64,000 nucleotides of DNA, taken from Megaustenia siamemsis (Eukaryota > Mollusca > Gastropoda > Stylommatophora > Ariophantidae). The stretch covers positions 78,798,965-78,862,964 of the forward strand of contig JAVIAB010000124.1 in NCBI GenBank assembly GCA_032433765.1, read 5' to 3'. A program made the translations under genes and the position numbers. Positions 18,666 to 49,043 of the stretch are shown here, one piece after another. Numbering within the stretch: the first letter of the stretch is position 1; each line of letters opens with the position of its first letter. The notes below the pieces were generated by a model. The model was given only the letters and a program-made list of their open reading frames with translations. It made no database searches and was not told the DNA's origin.

Positions 18666-19170
18666 CACAATAGTAGTATACCAGGGTCCAACTGATTAGC
18701 ATTTGGCCCGTAAATTAACAAAGATATATAGGGCGCCGCGCGGCGCGCATAAAGCGTGCGGCGCAGGGGGAGTTAACCATGACAGCTCGTGTCAGGATGT
18801 TGACCACTAGTCCCGGTGACTCCGGAAGTGACCTGTTTATGTCTGGTGTGCGCTGACTTTTGGAGTTCTTGCGGTACTTGCTCGACAGTGATAGGTTAGT
18901 AGATTATACAACATCAATGAAAAACAATCAATATAAAACAGAAGACAAAGATATATTTTATTCTTTTATTATCTCAATAGGTGTATAACATACATTGATA
19001 TTATATATCATTAAAAACATATTCAGTACATTGAGTAAATATATAGTACAGGGATAACAATTATTTATAGCTATGTAGTTGGGTGTCTGCTTAGCGTTGT
19101 GTCATAAATGAATCATAAGGGGTGAAACAGTTAGAGATTGCTGGGTAGTCTTAAGTGGTAGTGCAAAGAG

Positions 19171-19593
19171 TTAAATATCTAGAGGCGTTGTCGAGACGTT
19201 ATCATCAGCTACCTTTCTTTTTATATAGAAATAGGAAAGAGCATTTCTTGTTTGACTGTAGGAAAATATGGAATTATTTAAGACTTTGAAACCTACATTT
19301 TTCCCACCCTTAGCCTTTTGCGTGGCGAGAACCTCTAAAAACATATCTTTATCTAATTTGTTGTGTTGCTTGCTTAACCCTTTACAACTGATTTTATCGT
19401 AATCCCCACTACAATGGTACGTCTTACTACATAAGCTAACAAGAGCTGTCCCTTCGTACTCTAGTTTAAAAAGCCCGGGCGTTCGTTTGGTGTATGCTTT
19501 AACACCCTTACAGTTTATACAGTCTGTCTTGCTAGTATGTTCATCGCAGCGATGGTTGTATAGGGGTCGTCTAGTGAGTCGTGATGGGTGCAT
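19171..19593 (-). pseudogene. DNA polymerase B C-terminal fragment (Polinton type), left arm
   Basis: A 140-codon minus-strand frame, of which the first 14 or so codons are minisatellite sequence. The rest contains TPGLFKLEYEG, LVSLCSKTYHC, the KGLSKQHN block and ALSYFYIKRKVADD before a C-terminal TTPLDI. This succession is characteristic of the C-terminal end of Polinton/adintovirus-like protein-primed family B polymerases, which in the complete form replicate the linear element from terminal-protein primers. Exonuclease, TPR and palm motifs (including DTD) are missing, so it cannot polymerise. It differs from the right-arm copy at one residue (Ser instead of Asn in the SYSQTRN segment). Frame conservation in both arms is notable but may only reflect youth of the duplication. 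Confidence 0.8.
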
Positions 19594-20180
19594 GGAGGTC
19601 GGCTAGTATATCGTGATGGGTGTACGGATGGCGTTTAGTGTGTCATATTGGGTGTATAGAGGGCGGCTAGTGTGTCGTGATGGTTGTATAGGGGTCGTTT
19701 AGTGTGTCGTGATTGGTACAGGGAGGGCGGGTAGTGTGTTATGATGGGTGTACGGAGGTCGTCTAGTGTGTCATATTGGGTGTATAGAGGGCGTTTAGTG
19801 TGTCATGATGGTTGTATAGGGGTCGTCTAGTGTGTCATGATGGGTGCATGGAGGTCGGCTATTATATCGTGAGGGGTGTACGGAGGTCGGCTAGTGTGTC
19901 ATGATGGCGGTATACCGGTCGTCTAGTGTCATGATGGTTGTATGGAGGTCGTCTAGTGTTGTATGATGGGTGTATGGAGGTCGCCTACTGTGTCGTGAGG
20001 GGTGTATGGAGGTCATCTAGTGTGGTATGTGGGGTGTATGGAGGTCATCTAGTGTGGTATGTGGGGTGTATGGAGGTCATCTAGTGTGATATAAGGCTGT
20101 ATGCCGGGCGTCTAGTGTGACATGAGGGCTGTATACCGGTCGCCTAGTGTGGCATCAGGGCTGTATGGCGGTTGTCTGGT
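19575..20180. repeat. degenerate ~31-bp minisatellite, left arm
   Basis: Units such as CTAGTGTGTCATGATGGGTG plus TACGGAGGTCG with many variants. It overlaps the start of the polymerase fragment and is mirrored at 26745-27350. Confidence 0.9.
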
Positions 20181-20184
20181 ATAT

Positions 20185-20613
20185 CATACTTTAATCAACC
20201 AATAAGAAAACATGAAAAAATGAAGGAATTCAACATTACTTATCTTAACTACTTTACAGCAATACAGTTTAATAACGTGTTATCGTTAAGTCTTACCATA
20301 CTTTAAGAGAAAACATTCAAACTTACAGTATAAAATATAGTCTCAATCATCTACAATGAATATAACCTATTATCGATAACCCTTAACATACTTTAAGAGA
20401 AAACAAGCCAACTTACTGTGCAAAACTCCGCTAGAATGAACAGTAACTTTCCTTGAATCAACCAAACTTATAACACAAATTCTCACATGAGACTAGTTTA
20501 AATATATTCTGGTAGCAGATTTTAACCAATCAGCGAGTGACTACGTCAACATCGCCTGATATCCAGATTAACCAATCAGAGAAGAGTATTAACATCGGAG
20601 GCGGGGCAAAGAA
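20185..20613 (+). promoter_or_regulatory. CCAAT-rich putative promoter, left arm
   Basis: Between the outward polymerase fragment and the inward ORF there are CCAATAAG near 20196 and three copies of TTAACCAATCAG (about 20525, 20569, 20629). TTTAAATATATT near 20500 could serve as a TATA-like element. Clustered CCAAT boxes are typical NF-Y sites in animal promoters. Function is inferred only from motif clustering and position. Confidence 0.4.
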
Positions 20614-20931
20614 ATGACTGACAGGTGGATTAACCAATCAGAGAAGTGCGTTAGCCGAAGCGTAGGTAGTGGCTGTCGGGTCAGTGGTGGGGGAAAAATG
20701 CGGGGTGGTGGATTACTTGAACTCATTTTGACCCCTGAGCCAATTCCAGAAGAGTTCTATGACCTCATTTTGACCGCTGAAGGCTTTAATACCAGTGTTG
20801 CCCACTTCAACGAACGACATACATCATTAAAGGTGATTACTTCAGCTCTTAGACTTGGAGTTCCATATCTTTATCACTTCAACGAAGGACAGACAACAGT
20901 AAAGATGATCATTTCAGGTAAGAAAACTTAG
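20614..20931 (+). CDS. 105-codon ORF of unknown function, left arm
   Basis: ATG at 20614, reading toward the centre. Glycine-rich N-terminus (SGGGKMRGGG), then LELILTPEPIPEEFYDLILT and two similar segments, HFNERHTSLKVITS and HFNEGQTTVKMIIS. The DNA at the end of the second reads TTTCAG followed by GTAAGA, an excellent splice donor, and the frame stops eight bases later, so this may be a first exon. The predicted protein is identical in the right arm. No family was recognised. Chance ORF or UTR is possible. Confidence 0.4.
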   Translation: MTDRWINQSEKCVSRSVGSGCRVSGGGKMRGGGLLELILTPEPIPEEFYDLILTAEGFNTSVAHFNERHTSLKVITSALRLGVPYLYHFNEGQTTVKMIISGKKT

Positions 20932-21440
20932 TTCCAAACCCTAAAATTTTGGTTCATACTCACAAAGTTGAACACAAACTCTACAAATTTAGGCCCAACG
21001 TTGTAATTGTTAGACACGAAAGTCGTAAATGTTATATTCAAAGTCCAAAAGTTTGTCAAAAAGACAACCTAAACTCAAAATAGTTAGACACGAAAGGTCA
21101 AAAAAAAAAGTATATGCAAAGTCCAAAAGGTTACTCCAAAAGACAACTAATGTAACACCATTGCACAAAAATTTAGTTGCGTAACCAAAAAGTTGAACTC
21201 AAAACCCTACAAAATTTAAACCCAAAATAAAAATAGTTAGACACGAAAGACCAAATAGTTATATTCAAAGTCCAAAAGTTTGTCAAAAAGACAACCTTAA
21301 CTCAAAATAGTTAGACACAAAGCCCAACAATTTATATGCAAAGTCCAAAAAGTTACTCCAAAAGACAACTAATGTAGCACTTAATCCCAAAATTTCGTCT
21401 CATAACCAAAAAGTTGAACTCAAAACCCTAAAAAGTGTCC
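20932..21440. repeat. 222-bp tandem repeats, left arm (about 2-3 units)
   Basis: Units marked by AAAGTTGAACTCAAAACCCT (spacing near 220 bp at 21190 and 21408) and by CAAAAGACAACTAATGTA. The right arm has about seven to eight units of the same repeat. Confidence 0.85.
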
Positions 21441-21513
21441 ACTTATCAACCAAAGTCTTTAATACAGCTGAGAAAACCCTAATAAATAATTACAATTTAC
21501 TAAAAATGTTGCA

Positions 21514-21774
21514 CTTGATGATAGCTGCTACTGTGTCTAAATCATTATTGAAAATATTCATAGAACTCTAGTAAAAACCAAACACACTAAAACACCACAT
21601 TGAAAGAATGAACTTAAAGTTCACGCCTCTGTCACAACTCTGCTAAGAAAAGTACTACAAAACATGAAAGATATGGCCCCTGCTATAACTCTACTAAACG
21701 AAAGTATTACCAAACATGTAGGTTACACTCCTACCATAACCCACTAAGAAAAACAAGATTTTGCTTAAAATACC
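21514..21774. other. unpaired centre of the palindrome, left part
   Basis: Sequence present only once in the element. It includes degenerate repeats around CATGAAAG and CCACTAAGAAAA; no gene recognised. Confidence 0.4.
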
Positions 21775-22800
21775 ACATTTATGATTGTTACGCCCCTTGT
21801 CCCTTTATGAGGGGTACGTCCACGAAACTGTTAGAAATAGCAAATTTACACTCTAGGGCTACTCCAAACTTTACATTAGACATCCCCATAGCAAAAATTT
21901 ACTTAAAAGTCACTTTTATGGTTGTTACTTCCCTTGCCTATTTTTTGGCGGCTACGCCCATGAAACTGTTAAAAATAGTAAATTTAACATATAGACATAC
22001 CCCAAACTTTATATTAAGCATCTCCGTATCAAGAATTTACATAAAAACAACGTTTGAAATTACTACCCCTGTACCCATTTTTTGGCAGTTACGCCCATGA
22101 AACTGTTAAAAATAGTAAATTTAACCTCTAGACATACCCCAAACTTTATATTAAGCATCCCCATAACAAAAATTTACATAAAAACAACTTTTGAAATTAC
22201 TACCCCTGTACCCATTTTTGGCGGTTACACCCATGAAACTGTTAAAAATAGTAAATTTAACATCTAGACATACCCCAAACTTTATATTAAGCATCCCCGT
22301 ATCAAGAATTTACATAAAAACAACTTGTGAAATTACTACCCCTGTACCCATTTTTGGCGGTTACGCCCATGAAACTGTTAAAAATAGTAAATTTAACATC
22401 TAGACATACCCCAAACTTTATATTAAACATCCCCGTATCAAGAATTTACATAAAAACAACTTTTGAAATTACTACCCCTGTACCCATTTTTGGCGGTTAC
22501 GCCCATGAAATCGATAAAAAATTGAAATTTAACCTCTAGACATACCCCAAACTTTATATTAAGCATCCCCATATCAAGAATTTACATAAAAATCACTTTT
22601 GAAATTACTACCCATGTACAATTTTTGGCGGTTACGCCCATGAAACTGTTAAAAATAGTAAATTTAACATCTAGACATACCCCAAACTTTATATTAAGCA
22701 TCCCCGTATCAAGAATTTACATAAAAACAACTTTTGAAATTACTACCCCAGTACCCATTTTTGGCGGTTACGCCCATGAAATCGATAAAAAAAATTGAAG
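21775..22800. repeat. 136-bp tandem repeat in the palindrome centre (about 7.5 units)
   Basis: GGCGGTTACGCCCATGAAAC recurs with a 136-bp period (22221 and 22357). Units include TAGACATACCCCAAACTTTA and AAATTACTACCCCTGTACCC. A minor indel class has ATCGATAAAA in place of CTGTTAAAAA. Short frames here are repeat by-products. Confidence 0.92.
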
Positions 22801-22849
22801 TTTAACCTATTGGCATACATCAAACATAATTTGTGACACGCCCATGTAT

Positions 22850-23110
22850 CAAATTTGCCTAAAAAATCAACCAAAAATTAGTAGTATAGATTGGCATTTA
22901 GGATGGATAGACTATAAGGAAAAAACGGTAGACTCTCATATAAGGAAAAACGGTAGACTATTTATATAAGGAATATTCCTGGAAGCAGAAATATCTGCTG
23001 GTAGACTATTTATATAAGGAATATTCTGCTTCTGGAAGAAGATTCGGGGGTTCTAAATGACATACTATACTACTAATTTTTGGTTGATTTTTTAGGCAAA
23101 TTTGCAACAT
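22850..23110. repeat. inner inverted repeat at the centre/right-arm junction
   Basis: CAAATTTGCCTAAAAAATCA and the following AACCAAAAATTAGTAGTATA (about 22850-22887) face their reverse complements at about 23066-23107. The loop contains smaller repeats (GGTAGACTATTTATATAAGG twice) and a short GAATATTCC palindrome. It is a nested hairpin next to the position where right-arm homology begins. Confidence 0.85.
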
Positions 23111-23178
23111 TTTTAGTAAATTGTAATTATTTATTAGGGTTTTCTCAGCTGTATTAAAGACTTTGGTTGATAAGTGGA

Positions 23179-24352
23179 AAAACCTTTTGTACTTAACTTC
23201 ATCGACTTCAAAAAAGCATTTGATAGTATTCATAGAGATTCTTTGTGGAAAATTCTGAAGCAATATGGCTTACCATCAAAAATCATAAATATTATCAAAG
23301 ACATGTATGATGGTTACACATGTGCAGTTCGAACAGAGGAAGGACTGAGCGAATGTTTCCCAATAGAAACTGGGGTTAAACAAGGATGTATTTTATCGCC
23401 CTTGTTATTTGGAATTGTTATGGACTTCATAATGAAGAAATGCTGCACTGGTAATAAAGGCATCGAATGGATACAAGGAGACCATTTGGAGGACCTCGAC
23501 TTTGCTGATGACATAGTTCTCATCAGCAGTCAGATAAAAACGATGCAGGAAAACACAAATGAACTATCATCAATAGCCAGCAAAATTGGGCTTGAGGTCA
23601 ATCATGAAAAGACTAAAGTCATGAATAGTTTAATTCCAACAAGTGACAAAATATACATGGAAAACAAACCAGTAGAAGAGATCGATCACTTTATCTATCT
23701 TGGAAGTCACATTGATCGAGAAGGGGATACGAGCAAAGAAATTAGAATCAGACTGGCTAAAGCAGCAATGTCTTTCAGAAGCCTTGAAAAGTTGTGGAAA
23801 TCAAAACTCATTAGCACAAACACAAAACTTAGGCTATTCAAATCAAATGTACTATCAACCCTTACGTATGCGTGTGAAAGCTGGAAAACAACAAGAGATA
23901 TAGAAACAAAGTTGAACGCATTCGAAAATAAATGTCTAAGGAAAATACTTGGTATAGAATGGAACGAATTCAAAACAAACGAGGAAATTAGAGAAATCGC
24001 CAATCAACCACTATCTTCAGTAATAAAGAAAAGACGATGGTCATACGTTGGACATGTGATGAGAAGAGATAATAATCGAATAGCAAAGTAAGCCCTCATA
24101 TGGGAAACAACAGGTAAAAGAAAAAGAGGAAGACCCAGGGAGACACTGAGAAGAACATTGATGAGAGAGGCAAGAGCAGCAGGAATCGGCTCCATCAATG
24201 AGATAGAACTGCTTGCACAGAACAGAGACAGATGGCGAGATTTGATAAAATATCTTTAAAAGAAAACTGCTAGAACAAAAATTCATATAGGAGAAGGTGT
24301 ATCTTGGTCTACGCCCTATGGGCCGGTTACGGCTCGAAAGGTCAATAGATAG
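23179..24352 (+). mobile_element. RTE-type LINE, family B, 5'-truncated, inserted in the Polinton arm
   Basis: The frame from 23179 to 24091 encodes a reverse transcriptase from FIDFKKAFDSIHRDSLW through GVKQGCILSPLLFGIV and the intact catalytic FADD (LDFADDIVLIS) to HFIYLGSHIDREGD, LTYACESW and the C-terminal GHVMRRDNN. A stop at 24089-24091 replaces a Gln codon present in sister copies; beyond it the frame continues to 24259 (GRPRETLRRTLMREARAAG). The tail is a short (ATAG)n after CGAAAGGTCAATAG. A perfect 26-bp target-site duplication flanks the insert (23153-23178 and 24353-24378). The fingers and endonuclease are lost by 5' truncation, so the copy cannot transpose on its own. Confidence 0.93.
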
Positions 24353-24378
24353 ATTAAAGACTTTGGTTGATAAGTGGA

Positions 24379-25990
24379 CACTTTTTAGGGTTTTGAGTTC
24401 AACTTTTTGGTTATGAGACGAAATTTTGGGATTAAGTGCTACATTAGTTGTCTTTTGGAGTAACTTTTTGCACTTTGCATATAAATTGTTGGGCTTTGTG
24501 TCTAACTATTTTGAGTTAAGGTTGTCTTTTTGACAAACTTTTGGACTTTGAATATAACTATTTGGTCTTTCGTGTCTAACTATTTTGATTTTGGGTTTAA
24601 ATTTTGTAGGGTTTTGAGTTCAACTTTTTGGTTACGCAACTAAATTTTTGTGCAATGGTGTTACATTAGTTGTCTTTTGGAGTAACCTTTTGGACTTTGC
24701 ATATACTTTTTTTTTGACCTTTCGTGTCTAACTATTTTGAGTTTAGGTTGTCTTTTTGACAAACTTTTGGACTTTGCATATAACATTTACGACTTTCGTG
24801 TCGAACAATTACGACTTTGGGACTAAATTTTTAGGCTTTTGAGTTCAACTTTTTGGTTATGAGACGAAATTTTGGGGTTAAGTGCTACATTAGTTGTCTT
24901 TTGGAGTAACTTTTTTGGACTTTGCATATAAATTGTTGGGCTTTGTGTCTAACTATTTTGAGTTAAGGTTGTCTTTTTGACAAACTTTTGGACTTTGAAT
25001 ATAACATTTACGACTTTCGTGTCGAACAATTACGACTTTGGGACTAAATTTTTAGGCTTTTGAGTTCAACTGTTTGGTTATGAGATGCAATTTTGGGATT
25101 AAGTGTTATATTAGTTGTCTTTTGGAGTAACTTTTTGGCCTTTGCATATAAATTGTTGGGCTTTGTGTCTAACTATTTTGAGTTAAGGTTGTCTTTTTGA
25201 CAAACTTTTGGACTTTGAATATAACTATTTGGTCTTTCGTGTCTAACTATTTTTATTTTGGGTTTAAATTTTGTAGGGTTTTGAGTTCAACTTTTTGGTT
25301 ACGCAACTAAATTTTTGTGCAATGGTGTTACATTAGTTGTCTTTTGGAGTAACCTTTTGGACTTTGCATATACTTTTTTTTTTGACCTTTCGTGTCTAAC
25401 TATTTTGAGTTTAGGTTGTCTTTTTGACAAACTTTTGGACTTTGCATATAACATTTACGACTTTCGAGTCGAACAATTACGACTTTGGGACTAAATTTTT
25501 AGGCTTTTGAGTTCAACTTTTTGGTTATGAGACGAAATTTTGGGGTTAAGTGCTACATTAGTTGTCTTTTGGAGTAACTTTTTTGGACTTTGCATATAAA
25601 TTGTTGGGCTTTGTGTCTAACTATTTTGAGTTAAGGTTGTCTTTTTGACAAACTTTTGGACTTTGAATATAACATTTACGACTTTCGTGTCGAACAATTA
25701 CGACTTTGGGACTAAATTTTTAGGCTTTTGAGTTCAACTGTTTGGTTATGCGACGAAATTTTGGGGTTAAGTGTTACATTAGTTGTCTTTTGGAGTAACT
25801 TTTTGGCCTTTGCATATAAAATTGTTGGGCTTTGTGTCTAACTATTTTGAGTTTGGGTTGTCTTTTTGACAAACTTTTGGACTTTGCATATAACATTTAC
25901 GACTTTCGTGTCTAACAATTACAACGTTGGGCCTAAATTTGTAGAGTTTGTGTTCAACTTTGTGAGTATGAACCAAAATTTTAGGGTTTG
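24379..25990. repeat. 222-bp tandem repeats, right arm (about 7-8 units)
   Basis: GAGTTCAACTTTTTGGTTA recurs at about 24388, 24617, 24841, 25070, 25283, 25510 and 25731. Two sub-variants (one with TACGCAAC, one with TATGAGACG) recur in a pattern suggesting duplication of multi-unit blocks. Confidence 0.9.
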
Positions 25991-25993
25991 GAA

Positions 25994-26311
25994 CTAAGTT
26001 TTCTTACCTGAAATGATCATCTTTACTGTTGTCTGACCTTCGTTGAAGTGATAAAGATATGGAACTCCAAGTCTAAGAGCTGAAGTAATCACCTTTAATG
26101 ATGTATGTCGTTCGTTGAAGTGGGCAACACTGGTATTAAAGCCTTCAGCGGTCAAAATGAGGTCATAGAACTCTTCTGGAATTGGCTCAGGGGTCAAAAT
26201 GAGTTCAAGTAATCCACCACCCCGCATTTTTCCCCCACCACTGACCCGACAGCCACTACCTACGCTTCGGCTAACGCACTTCTCTGATTGGTTAATCCAC
26301 CTGTCAGTCAT
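25994..26311 (-). CDS. 105-codon ORF of unknown function, right arm
   Basis: Inverted copy of the ORF at 20614-20931 with an identical predicted protein and the same CAG/GTAAGA donor-like end. Identity of both copies implies a recent origin of the palindrome, gene conversion between arms, or constraint; synonymous differences between the arms would tell these apart. Confidence 0.4.
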   Translation of the reverse strand: MTDRWINQSEKCVSRSVGSGCRVSGGGKMRGGGLLELILTPEPIPEEFYDLILTAEGFNTSVAHFNERHTSLKVITSALRLGVPYLYHFNEGQTTVKMIISGKKT

Positions 26312-26740
26312 TTCTTTGCCCCGCCTCCGATGTTAATACTCTTCTCTGATTGGTTAATCTGGATATCAGGCGATGTTGACGTAGTCACTCGCTGATTGGT
26401 TAAAATCTGCTACCAGGATATATTTAAACTAGTCTCATGTGAGAATTTGTGTTATAAGTTTGGTTGATTCGAGGAAAGTTACTGTTCATTCTAGCGGAGT
26501 TTTGCACAGTAAGTTGGCTTGTTTTCTCTTAAAGTATGTTAAGGGTTATCGATAATAGGTTATATTCATTGTAGATGATTGAGACTATATTTTATACTGT
26601 AAGTTTGAATGTTTTCTCTTAAAGTATGGTAAGACTTAACGATAACACGTTATTAAACTGTATTGCTGTAAAGTAGTTAAGATAAGTAATGTTGAATTCC
26701 TTCGTTTTTTCATGTTTTCTTATTGGTTGATTAAAGTATG
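26312..26740 (-). promoter_or_regulatory. CCAAT-rich putative promoter, right arm
   Basis: Mirror of 20185-20613 with the same ATTGGTTAA motifs (three between about 26285 and 26400, one near 26723). It separates the right ORF from the minisatellite and polymerase fragment. Confidence 0.4.
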
Positions 26741-26744
26741 ATAT

Positions 26745-27350
26745 ACCAGACAACCGCCATACAGCCCTGATGCCACACTAGGCGACCGGTATACAGCCCT
26801 CATGTCACACTAGACGCCCGGCATACAGCCTTATATCACACTAGATGACCTCCATACACCCCACATACCACACTAGATGACCTCCATACACCCCACATAC
26901 CACACTAGATGACCTCCATACACCCCTCACGACACAGTAGGCGACCTCCATACACCCATCATACAACACTAGACGACCTCCATACAACCATCATGACACT
27001 AGACGACCGGTATACCGCCATCATGACACACTAGCCGACCTCCGTACACCCCTCACGATATAATAGCCGACCTCCATGCACCCATCATGACACACTAGAC
27101 GACCCCTATACAACCATCATGACACACTAAACGCCCTCTATACACCCAATATGACACACTAGACGACCTCCGTACACCCATCATAACACACTACCCGCCC
27201 TCCCTGTACCAATCACGACACACTAAACGACCCCTATACAACCATCACGACACACTAGCCGCCCTCTATACACCCAATATGACACACTAAACGCCATCCG
27301 TACACCCATCACGATATACTAGCCGACCTCCATGCACCCATCACGACTCA
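26745..27350. repeat. degenerate ~31-bp minisatellite, right arm
   Basis: Mirror image of 19575-20180 (units such as CGACCTCCATACACCCATCA). It supplies the first codons of the following polymerase frame. Confidence 0.9.
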
Positions 27351-27754
27351 CTAGACGACCCCTATACAACCATCGCTGCGATGAACATACTAGCAAGACA
27401 GACTGTATAAACTGTAAGGGTGTTAAAGCATACACCAAACGAACGCCCGGGCTTTTTAAACTAGAGTACGAAGGGACAGCTCTTGTTAGCTTATGTAGTA
27501 AGACGTACCATTGTAGTGGGGATTACGATAAAATCAGTTGTAAAGGGTTAAGCAAGCAACACAACAAATTAGATAAAGATATGTTTTTAGAGGTTCTCGC
27601 CACGCAAAAGGCTAAGGGTGGGAAAAATGTAGGTTTCAAAGTCTTAAATAATTCCATATTTTCCTACAATCAAACAAGAAATGCTCTTTCCTATTTCTAT
27701 ATAAAAAGAAAGGTAGCTGATGATAACGTCTCGACAACGCCTCTAGATATTTAA
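27332..27754 (+). pseudogene. DNA polymerase B C-terminal fragment (Polinton type), right arm
   Basis: Inverted copy of the left-arm fragment, 140 codons with the ATG at 27332 inside minisatellite sequence. It has the same TPGLFK, LCSKTYHC, KGLSKQHN and YIKRKVADD blocks and stops at 27754, about 500 bp from the element tip. The distance between gene end and terminus suits a Polinton, where the polymerase gene lies next to one terminal repeat. Catalytic motifs are absent. Confidence 0.8.
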
Positions 27755-27954
27755 CTCTTTACACTACCACTTAAGACTACCCAGCAATCTCTAACTGTTT
27801 CACCCCTTATGATTCATTTATGACACAACGCTAAGCAGACACCCAACTACATAGCTATAAATAATTGTTATCCCTGTACTATATATTTACTCAATGTACT
27901 GAATATGTTTTTAATGATATATAATATCAATGTATGTTATACACCTATTGAGAT

Positions 27955-27968
27955 AATAAAAGAATAAA
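27955..27968 (+). terminator. polyadenylation signals downstream of the polymerase fragment
   Basis: AATAAA at 27955-27960 and again at 27963-27968, about 200 bp after the stop codon in AT-rich sequence. The left arm has the mirrored pair. Confidence 0.5.
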
Positions 27969-28589
27969 ATATATCTTTGTCTTCTGTTTTATATTGATTG
28001 TTTTTCATTGATGTTGTATAATCTACTAACCTATCACTGTCGAGCAAGTACCGCAAGAACTCCAAAAGTCAGCGCACACCAGACATAAACAGGTCACTTC
28101 CGGAGTCACCGGGACTAGTGGTCAACATCCTGACACGAGCTGTCATGGTTAACTCCCCCTGCGCCGCACGCTTTATGCGCGCCGCGCGGCGCCCTATATA
28201 TCTTTGTTAATTTACGGGCCAAATGCTAATCAGTTGGACCCTGGTATACTACTCACAATATGGTTTGTCCAGGTGGAACATGTGTTTCTGTTCCCTGTGG
28301 GACGTACACAAGGTAAAGACAAGGGCATAAAACTCGAAGTATCCTCAGCGTAAGATGGAGGGATTATCACAGAAACTATGCAACAGCGTCAAACAACAAA
28401 AGCTTATGTTGTTAGAATAACGAGAGATTTGCAACACAACACATTTACTCAGAAAGGAAGAGGAACGAGTGACGAAGAAGAAGATACTGATTAAATTTAT
28501 AATCTAGGCTTAGTGATTACATTATTTAGAATCTTGATAATTAAATATCTAATCAACGAAACACCATTACTTAGAGAGTAACGATGACA

Positions 28590-46441: not shown

Positions 46442-49043
46442 CAGCGGTCGTCAAACTGTGCTCCGCGGAGCCTAGGTGCTCCGCGAGCCCATCCTAGGGG
46501 CTCCGCGGATCGGACATCATTTTCATCATCAACGAGTGCCATGCCCGTCGTAGGTGATATTTCTCAACAAACAATTTATCAACTTCGCCGTTTTTGTACC
46601 ACAATAATGTCTAATTATTTCTCTCTATGGCCCAAGATTTATTTTCCGCTCTTTTCAATGACAGTTAGCAACAATGTTTTATTCAAATTTATTCGGTGTA
46701 AAGTCGTGTGTGTGTGTGTGTGTGTTGTGGCCAAGTGGTTGACTTTCCTTTGTTCTTGAAAGGGTGCCGCAAACATCAATCAAAGAAAATTGGCGCCGGA
46801 TAGGCTCACTCGTTCGGACTTTCTCTGCCCGCCCCCACCTCCCACCCATCCAACTCCGTCCCGCCATACGCTTTGATCGAGAGAAGAGCATTCAAGTCGC
46901 ACCAGTGAAAATAATATTCAGTTTGGACGTTTGTTTTATCGAAGTCAGTTTGATTAAAACCTTGTCTCGTGTCAGTGCTCTGTTGTCACAATGGATAATT
47001 TTGTAAGTAGGACTATAAAACGTACCATCTCTGACGATTCATGCAGTTCAAAAGACGCAGAATTGAAACGGGGGGAAAAGCGTAAGTATGACGATAGTTA
47101 CTTGGATTTCGGATTTACTAGCACTGTTGTAGAAAATGAGGAGTGCCCAAAATGTGTTATTTGTTTTAAAGTTTTGGCCTGTGCAAGCATGCATCCCAGT
47201 AAATTGAAACGACATTTGCAAACAGTCCATAGTAGTTTAGTGAACCGACCACGTGAATTCTTTTCTCAGAAGTTAAAAGAAATGAATCAACAAAAGGCAA
47301 CTTTCACAAAACATGCGACGATTCCTTCAAGGGCTCTTCTTTCATCTTACAAAGTTGCTTATCTAGTAGCAAAGAACAAGAAACCTCACACCATTGCAAA
47401 AGAACTTATCTTACCGGCCGCAGTTGAGATGGTGACTGTTATGATAGGTGAGTCTGCTGCCAAACAACTGCTGAATGTGCCCTTGTCAGATAACACTATT
47501 AGTCGTCGAATTCATGAGATGGCTGACGATGTTAATGACCAGCTTATTCAAAAACTACGAGGTGATTTTGCTCTTCAGCTGGATGAAGCCACTGACATAC
47601 ACAGTGATGCATACTTAATTTGCTATGTTCGGTTCATAGATGACAATAGCAAGTTTTGCGAGGAACTACTTTTTTGTAAAATCATAAAATCTGCATGCAA
47701 AGCAGCAGATCTGTTTCAAATACTTGATTCTTTTATTGAAGAAAATAGAATTAACTGGGAGAATTGTGTAGGAGTGTGCACAGACGGAGGTCGTTCAATG
47801 TCTGGATGCTATACTGGGCTGCAAGCTTTGATCCGCAAAAAGTCTCCTTTCTGTGTTTGGACTCATTGCATTATTCACAGGGAAGCACTGGCTTCAAAAA
47901 ACACCTGCCCGGCCCTTAATGAGGTTGTTCAGTCCATAATCGAAGTAGTAAATTTTATTAAAATGCGACCACTTAAATGCCGGTGGTTTGAGCAAATGTG
48001 CATTGATATGGGAGCCACACATACTTCCTTGCTCTATTATTGTAACTCTCGATGGCTTTCACGTGGAAATGTCGTGAAAAGGGTCTATGAACTGAGAAAT
48101 GAGCTTCATTGCTATCTTGTTGAAGAAAAGCATTCTAGTTCAGGAAAGTTTGTGGATGACGACTTTGTTTTGAAGTTGACATATCTTTGTGATATATTTG
48201 AAAAACTAAATTCGTTAAACATGTCCCTGCAAGGTACTGAAACGCACATACTACAACTGTCGGAGAAAGTTTCCGCCTTCAGAAGAAAATTATTATTGTG
48301 GAAGGAAAAACTGGTCGACAAAGATTTTAGTTACTGTTTTCCAACTCTACATGCACTTTTAGTTGATAATGATTTGAGTTTAAGTGAAGAACTAAGAGGT
48401 GTGTTTGTAGGTCATTTAACACAGCTCATTGCTTATTTTGACAAGTATTTCTCAGGAGAGGCAGACCAGTATGATTGGATTAAAAACCCGTTTAGTACAG
48501 CACTACCCACAACTCTCACTTCGAAAGAACAAGAGCAATTGATTGATATTTCATCAGACGCAACTTTGAAAGCAAGATTAGCTTCCTCATCACTACCAGA
48601 ATTTTGGAGCTTTGTAAAGCAAGAATTTCCAGAAGTAGGCAAGAAGGCCCTCCGTGTATTAATTCCATTTGCGACTACCTACTTATGTGAGACCGGTTTT
48701 TCGGCACTGGCAGCTATAAAAACCAAATACAGATCACATTTGAACGCTGAGAAAGAGATTAGAGTGGGAATTTCCAAACTTGTGCCAAGATTTGAGGACC
48801 TGGTGAGGATGAAGCAAGCTCATTCTTCCCATTGACTTTATACAGCAAATAAATATCACAATGTAAGTTGATTCACTTATACTTTTATTACATAAATATA
48901 ATAACCTGTTAAATATGCCGTTAAAATGTTCTTAAAAGTTTGGGTTTTTTAACATTGTAATTTTTGTTGATATAAGGTGCTGCCGCGGTGATTTGTGGTT
49001 AAGAATTAGGGCTCCGTGGGTCGAAAAAGTTTGACGACCGCTG
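46442..49043 (+). mobile_element. complete hAT transposon, 2.6 kb
   Basis: The termini are CAGCGGTCGTCAAACT at the left (46442) and its perfect reverse complement at the right (ending 49043), with weaker similarity beyond (GCTCCGCGG versus CACGGAGC). An 8-bp target duplication flanks it, AGTTAAAG (46434-46441) and AGTTAGAG (49044-49051), with one mismatch. hAT elements duplicate 8 bp, and CAG-starting termini are usual for the group. It carries a single uninterrupted transposase gene. The 5' region has a (GT)n run near 46708 and the 3' region an AATAAA at 48848. The one mismatch suggests some age, yet all parts needed in cis and trans appear present. Confidence 0.93.
46991..48835 (+). CDS. 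hAT transposase, ZBED5/SCAND3-like, 614 aa
   Basis: Uninterrupted from ATG at 46991 to TGA at 48835. Domains in order: a BED-type zinc finger (C55-x2-C58 and H75-x4-H80 within CPKCVICFK..KLKRHLQTVH); an alpha-helical linker; the RNase H-like core with a first Asp in LQLDEATDI (D198) and a second in VCTDGGRSM (D265); the CxxRWLSRG motif at about residues 351-359; and the C-terminal hAT dimerisation region with the catalytic Glu in TYLCETGFSAL (E567). All three catalytic residues are present. Vertebrate relatives (ZBED5, FAM200, SCAND3 type) are domesticated; here the flanking terminal repeats show a transposon. The enzyme would act in the nucleus to cut out and reinsert the element. Codons show no stop or frameshift, so it may be functional. 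Confidence 0.94.
   Translation: MDNFVSRTIKRTISDDSCSSKDAELKRGEKRKYDDSYLDFGFTSTVVENEECPKCVICFKVLACASMHPSKLKRHLQTVHSSLVNRPREFFSQKLKEMNQQKATFTKHATIPSRALLSSYKVAYLVAKNKKPHTIAKELILPAAVEMVTVMIGESAAKQLLNVPLSDNTISRRIHEMADDVNDQLIQKLRGDFALQLDEATDIHSDAYLICYVRFIDDNSKFCEELLFCKIIKSACKAADLFQILDSFIEENRINWENCVGVCTDGGRSMSGCYTGLQALIRKKSPFCVWTHCIIHREALASKNTCPALNEVVQSIIEVVNFIKMRPLKCRWFEQMCIDMGATHTSLLYYCNSRWLSRGNVVKRVYELRNELHCYLVEEKHSSSGKFVDDDFVLKLTYLCDIFEKLNSLNMSLQGTETHILQLSEKVSAFRRKLLLWKEKLVDKDFSYCFPTLHALLVDNDLSLSEELRGVFVGHLTQLIAYFDKYFSGEADQYDWIKNPFSTALPTTLTSKEQEQLIDISSDATLKARLASSSLPEFWSFVKQEFPEVGKKALRVLIPFATTYLCETGFSALAAIKTKYRSHLNAEKEIRVGISKLVPRFEDLVRMKQAHSSH

Follow-up and report, generated by a model that had tools for sequence, protein, structure and literature searches.

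The window analyzed here, a stretch of 64,000 nucleotides from the gastropod Megaustenia siamemsis (contig JAVIAB010000124.1, positions 78,798,965 to 78,862,964), contains a palindrome of 9,582 bp at 18672-28253 whose first bases are AGTAGTATAC and whose last bases are GTATACTACT. It raises the question of how a DNA element comes to carry the same end of a type B DNA polymerase gene (polB) on both of its sides. An earlier reading made from the letters alone, here called the sequence-only reading, had proposed that one end of a Polinton replaced the other, giving a gene-less, snap-back palindrome that integrated as a unit. We find that the window copy is a polB-deleted member of a numerous palindromic mobile family. 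Our preferred reading, to which we assign a probability of roughly 0.6, is that this family consists of polB-only mirror elements that act like Polintons, together with polB-deleted satellites, and that the window copy is one such satellite.

The palindrome was inserted as one unit

The AG...CT termini and the 6-bp duplication described by the sequence-only reading are both present, with the hexamer CACAAT lying in direct orientation on the two sides of the element. Alignment of 18672-21513 with 23103-28253 gave the anticipated inverted match. Its outer part, 18672-21094 against the reverse complement of 25831-28253, pairs without a gap for 2,423 bp, in which 9 positions differ, and the match extends inward to 21513/23103, broken in the right arm by an expansion of 221-bp repeats (about seven units versus about two in the left arm) and by a long interspersed nuclear element (LINE). 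The LINE is 5'-truncated and flanked by a 25-bp target duplication, and its empty site is kept in the left arm. None of the 9 arm mismatches falls inside the 32-bp array of about 20 copies. The mirror of a 136-bp array is not present in the right arm, with a 2-bp overlap at 23103-23104. The right arm appears to have lost it, an interpretation borne out by four relatives (L022, L025, L026 and L027) that have the array in both arms.

Each arm holds a polymerase C-terminal fragment of about 125 codons that reads outward and stops about 500 bp from the tip. Among 35 candidate proteins, 33 matched this fragment at E <= 0.001 (best 2.4e-44), and one of the 35, P0019 from Holothuria leucospilota, is named DNA-directed DNA polymerase in one source. 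The arms and the direct CACAAT copies uphold the earlier proposals that both ends come from the polymerase side and that the element inserted as one unit; the proposed original size of about 8 kb agrees with 9,582 bp minus the 1.2-kb LINE. The features of the element are as follows.

18666..18671: target duplication CACAAT, left copy, from the sequence
18672..21513, plus strand: left arm, by its inverted match to 23103-28253
18672..19548, plus strand: outer arm with terminus and polB C-terminus, matched at 94-95% over 877-878 bp in four of four polB-bearing copies
19171..19548, minus strand: polB C-terminal fragment of the left arm, outward, from its open reading frame (ORF) and protein matches
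19549..21753, plus strand: foreign segment in place of the polB body, without a match in polB-bearing copies between 19548 and 21754
19551..20177, plus strand: 32-bp tandem array adjoining the polB fragment, identical between the arms
20520..20920, plus strand: promoter-like and exon-like stretch, with three CCAATCAG motifs, an ATG at 20698 and CAG/GTAAGA at 20915-20923 (slash, putative splice position)
21754..22928, plus strand: 136-bp array and start of the centre, common to polB-bearing copies
22850..23104: centre, an inverted repeat (22850-22901/23053-23104) around a spacer
22880-22888, plus strand, and 23066-23074, minus strand: copies of the terminal AGTAGTATA in the centre
23103..28253, minus strand: right arm with insertion and repeat expansion, by its inverted match to the left arm
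23178..24352, plus strand: 5'-truncated LINE, with reverse transcriptase PF00078 at E 1.2e-24 and the duplication at 23153-23177/24353-24377
24382..25988, minus strand: expanded 221-bp repeat array of the right arm
26748..27374, minus strand: 32-bp tandem array of the right arm
27377..27754, plus strand: polB C-terminal fragment of the right arm, outward, from its ORF and protein matches
28254..28259: target duplication CACAAT, right copy, from the sequence

Long palindromes are a known sequencing and assembly hazard, and an assembly or library hairpin artefact would also yield mirrored arms. We regard this explanation as practically negligible because of the nine arm differences, the LINE present on one side only and the direct rather than inverted CACAAT copies; the one-sided repeat expansion and the hundreds of other places in the genome speak against it as well.

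The family is numerous and mobile

The genome searched comprises 2.59 Gb in 155 contigs. With the outer 809 bp as the query, the best 40 of 4,858 loose candidates were scored, and these formed 16 inward-facing pairs and 8 matches without a listed partner. The 16 pairs, which include the window copy, are the best-matching part of the family and a non-random sample of it. All 16 copies are palindromic. Target duplications were perfect in 12 (two of which share one hexamer) and had one mismatch in 2; the remaining 2 have rearranged flanks, and one of them retains its duplication farther out. Both AG-starting ends were seen in all 16 copies, one of which, C59a, has its last-but-one base changed. 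The genome thus holds further copies that share the internal junction but differ in their target duplications, as the sequence-only reading had anticipated.

A 27-base terminal pattern built from the observed variants matched the genome exactly at 257 forward and 250 reverse places, and its backwards control matched at none. When up to two mismatches were allowed, 897 forward and 913 reverse matches were obtained, whereas the controls gave 0 and 0. The sequence-only reading had named existence as a single copy as a sign of artefact; these 1,810 matches dispose of that concern. Because of the 897 and 913 matches, we place the number of elements that retain recognisable ends on the order of 900. 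Among the first 100 places listed for the exact pattern, 88 make 44 pairs of 5.6-14.3 kb and 12 are unpaired; copy C51 measures 14.8 kb, and most elements are 8-14 kb long.

Related palindromes carry polB in both arms

The junction between polB and the 32-bp array seen in the window was found in 11 of the 16 copies; C124b lacks the anchor string yet matches the window element across the junction. In four other copies, C124 (43.9 Mb), C25, C116 and C87 (51.7 Mb), the polB frame runs on upstream without entering the array. These four have polB pieces in each arm, mirrored, outward and near full-length, with N-terminal C2H2 fingers, and in all four polB is damaged by stops, frameshifts or deletions. 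Every ORF of at least 120 amino acids listed for them falls within the polB stretch and on its strand; the fetched stretches of their two halves showed no further one of that length. Their similarity to the window element is confined to 18672-19548 and to the part that begins at 21754 and leads into the array and centre; between these parts, 2.2 kb of different sequence in the window form replaces the polB body in both arms.

Mirror order was also observed in searches with polB itself. With the middle of polB as the query, the best 40 of 2,022 loose candidates (97-100%) included 26 matches in 13 pairs, all in outward order and none in the opposite order, and 14 without a listed partner. A PolB protein piece, for which the best 46 of 10,626 loose candidates were taken, gave 9 pairs, again none in the opposite order, and 28 matches without a listed partner, several of which find partners in the other terminus and polB searches. 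In 31 of the 46 the reading frame stays open for 1,400 codons or more, an upper view of the open share since these are the best-scoring matches, and polB is open to this extent on both sides in 4 of the 9 listed mirror pairs.

No Pfam model was matched by the polymerase. A fold of a whole 1003-residue piece was poor (predicted local distance difference test score [pLDDT] 37.9), and a model of 280 C-terminal residues reached pLDDT 69.1, for which Foldseek alone ranked dipeptidyl peptidases first. An hhalign comparison with the phi29 polymerase gave nothing informative, and a scan of IMG/VR viral contigs for relatives of the polB end confirmed none.

A shared centre points to one inherited palindrome

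In 15 of the 16 copies, the arms join at AACCAAAAATT or AACCAAAAACT followed by AGTAGTATA, with a one-base variant in one copy. The nine bases of AGTAGTATA are those with which the end of the element itself starts. In 13 copies the motif flanks a unique spacer in inverted orientation, and 2 copies have it on one side; in C87 (51.7 Mb), no central AGTAGTATA was found within two mismatches. We guess that the central motif may serve as a second origin or bind a protein that aids in opening or resolving a hairpin. We also considered that it marks a nested insertion that made a 6-bp duplication, but rejected this because the flanks AAAATT and AATTTT are mirror images and not direct repeats.

The spacers of polB-bearing and polB-less copies are alike by eye, and the array-plus-centre match is continuous between the two forms. 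Because both forms share this centre, these observations are strong evidence that the palindrome arose once and was inherited as such. The sequence-only reading held instead that a Polinton end snapped back recently into a gene-less palindrome that then integrated, with other copies as its progeny or as independent snap-backs. The palindrome, its duplication and its polB-side ends are as that account describes. However, palindromes with polB have the outer 877 bp as well as the array-plus-centre in common with the window copy, and independent snap-backs would differ in the centre, where the motif recurs in 15 of 16 copies. We therefore regard a recent snap-back as highly improbable. The window copy has indeed lost its genes, but a gene-less palindromic form does not describe its relatives with polB in both arms, and a fresh snap-back at the moment the genes were dropped does not fit a centre common to both forms. 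The mirror architecture came first and the loss of polB second, because polB-bearing palindromes share the centre of polB-less copies.

The two arms of each copy are kept alike

Over the outer 809 bp, the arms differ by 0-0.4% in all 15 copies with both arms usable (the right arm of C59b was dropped as too short), and of the 30 arms whose partner was usable, 29 are closest to that partner, ties included. The same terminal variant occurs at both ends in 42 of the 44 listed pairs, compared with a mean of 13.1 and a maximum of 24 in 10,000 shuffles. In the rest of the arms most 400-bp bins differ by 0-3 bases, and the innermost bins are often more divergent. Divergent blocks, which lie partly within tandem arrays where alignment is unsafe, were seen in C25, C87a, C124b, C104 and C59b, and C124a has one bin with 25 differences.

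In two copies the mirror runs into host DNA. In C91 (24.7 Mb; 24724300-24752700; L024, L046, L047), it extends 3.37 kb into the right flank, as far as a 21-bp piece left over from the right end of the element, after which comes CACATT, which equals the left duplication. It looks as though the right arm copied the left arm by repair, with the copying continued into the flank on the left. In C154 (41.2 Mb; 41216280-41246960; L040, L041, L048, L049), the mirror extends 2.75 kb into the right flank; neither an element end nor a duplication was found past it in the 9.9 kb fetched.

The palindrome could be inherited while gene conversion or break repair maintains the likeness of its arms in the chromosome, with no hairpin intermediate. 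The arm copying after insertion in C91 and C154 favors this possibility, and the divergent blocks would fit patchy conversion, with the same caution over the arrays. In contrast, shared terminal variants in 42 of 44 listed pairs and arms 0-0.4% apart would require very frequent conversion, while flank copying was seen in just 2 of 16 copies. We consider conversion alone unlikely.

polB is under purifying selection between lineages

Between polB lineages, the ratio of nonsynonymous to synonymous divergence (dN/dS) was 0.13-0.37 at dS 0.09-0.28. The recent pair C116/C87b gave 0.57 and 0.77. Within copies, values of 0.45 (C25) and 1.06 (C124a) were obtained, and the ratio was undefined in two comparisons with dS 0; one row was left out, in which two pieces of one protein met in a chance alignment over 24 residues. 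This sequence pattern shows purifying selection on PolB between lineages; polB function was therefore kept in the source lineages, whereas inserted copies decay.

Across the 102 C-terminal residues of nine representatives of both forms (36 pairs), dN was 0-0.017 and dS 0-0.12, with dS 0 and nonzero dN in three pairs. Since polB-less copies show the same constraint, either they exchange ends with polB-bearing copies or they were derived more than once.

Relationship to Polintons and other systems

Polintons have AG ends, 6-bp duplications and a size of about 15-20 kb. The family agrees with the first two: 12 of 16 copies have perfect 6-bp duplications, and AG-starting terminal inverted repeats were seen at both ends of all 16, with the one changed base in C59a. 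The element lengths given above fall short of the Polinton range. No retroviral-like integrase was found in the ORFs of at least 120 amino acids of the four polB-bearing copies or in the window ORFs, where shorter or spliced genes remain possible, and no packaging ATPase, protease or capsid gene was found in the ORF lists of the window and those four copies. Known Polintons, in the account excerpted from PMC6431247, encode a retroviral-like integrase and have 5-10 ORFs, including a protease and a packaging ATPase; further background on family membership comes from excerpts of PMC2836005, PMC1864894 and PMC11071296. Like Polintons/Mavericks and adintovirus-like elements, the family has terminal inverted repeats with AG ends, duplications of 6 bp and a polymerase that looks PolB-type, but it differs from Polintons/Mavericks in that only polB was found, in two mirrored copies, and in that most elements measure 8-14 kb. 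Because the integrase, virion genes and size do not agree while the duplication and AG ends do, we describe the family as apparently Polinton-like in action, with incomplete membership, and do not file it as Polinton.

Relatives with more genes exist. At C91:37975000-37977000 and 37980500-37988500 (L051, L052), a zinc-finger polB element is flanked by a PC4-like ORF (PF02229, 5e-9) and a Bcl-2-like ORF (PF00452, 6e-9), and its polB is related to the family polB, with 76-77% DNA identity over 207 bp. Such relatives might supply an integrase; no integrase gene was found. Alternatively, the family could be a separate, undescribed class of polB element, not derived from Polintons, whose own integration enzyme has no long ORF or known domain. 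A polymerase that matches no Pfam model would agree with this, and terminal nucleotides with 6-bp duplications are by themselves weak evidence of kinship. However, the same genome holds the multi-gene element with a related polB, and the arms contain no further ORF of at least 120 amino acids; we judge a separate class improbable.

Another polB family (57-58% to P0006) has two pairs in outward mirror order, L053/L054 (C1:41839300 and 41848300) and L055/L056 (C87:21053900 and 21063100), with inverted identity of 95.6% and 97.7% past the gene end and a terminus unlike that of the window family. Mirrored polB may thus be wider than the window family. Among the titles and abstract openings listed from the open-access literature, no mirror-polB element was named; Repbase and most subscription papers lie outside this scope, and an earlier description is possible.

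Palindromic defective genomes of adenovirus and similar protein-primed viruses have one end on both sides and mirror arms. The window family likewise has one end twice, but those genomes are sporadic laboratory by-products, in contrast to a chromosomal family of some hundreds of elements, on the order of 900, with a selected polymerase. Fungal invertron-type linear mitochondrial plasmids (kalilo, maranhar and pAL2-1) are similar in having few genes, PolB and terminal inverted repeats, and flanks of the kind described for these plasmids are present at copies C91 and C154. The plasmids differ in being mitochondrial, in having an RNA polymerase gene and in not being whole-length palindromes, and the excerpted accounts of them tell of no 6-bp duplication. 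The copies studied here lie in contigs of up to 194 Mb, and the polB-bearing ones have no second long ORF. Foldback/Galileo elements share very long, internally repetitive inverted repeats (PMC3573991); an excerpt of the same source classes Galileo by a P-element-type transposase, whereas the window family has polB and no transposase found. No Pfam transposase was matched among the element ORFs scanned, a scan not aimed at the P-element type.

The foreign segment and other window content

The best 40 genome matches of the foreign segment, which include 13 inward-facing pairs, revealed no evident single-copy donor. Within it and in its right-arm mirror, the stretch 20520-20920 combines the three CCAATCAG motifs with a GC-rich box, the ATG and a consensus 5' splice site, all directed inward, and may represent a captured promoter with its first exon. 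No host gene could be named as the source, since for the ORF at 20593-20928 neither a homologue at E <= 1 (5 candidates) nor a Pfam match was found. Elsewhere in the window, a 625-codon ORF at 46958-48832 has a weak match to the hAT dimerisation domain (PF05699, E 0.0018, below its cut-off). Tandem arrays are numerous across the window as a whole (67 rows at score >= 80, overlaps included), which also holds several fragments of LINE reverse transcriptase.

A proposed mode of replication and its significance

Under our preferred reading, PolB from intact members would start protein-primed replication at the two identical ends, and the displaced strand would fold on itself over its full length. 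This long hairpin would be the replication intermediate and would preserve the likeness of the arms. Insertion of the product would then depend in trans on a Polinton-type integrase supplied by other elements, and polB-deleted copies would multiply as satellites of polB-bearing ones. After insertion, the arms may still copy each other, at times into the host flank. A further step, which we put forward tentatively and at somewhat less than even odds, is that the family is a hairpin transposon: self-sustaining mobile DNA made of two mirrored polymerase genes, with a borrowed integrase and polB-less satellites. Each single strand would then be its own template and spare copy, and the two polB genes would keep each other alike.

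Long palindromes are usually thought unstable, and the multiplying form here is an element with mirror arms of several kilobases despite that presumed instability. A mirrored polB with no other recognised gene would be an unusual copying mode for mobile DNA. If the mirrored polymerase is adaptive, providing two origins and self-templated upkeep, it would represent a new few-gene life for a protein-primed element and, as copy C91 illustrates, would give rise naturally to inverted duplications of host DNA. With elements numbering on the order of 900, the identity of ends in linear protein-primed genomes and the origin of their satellites become testable.

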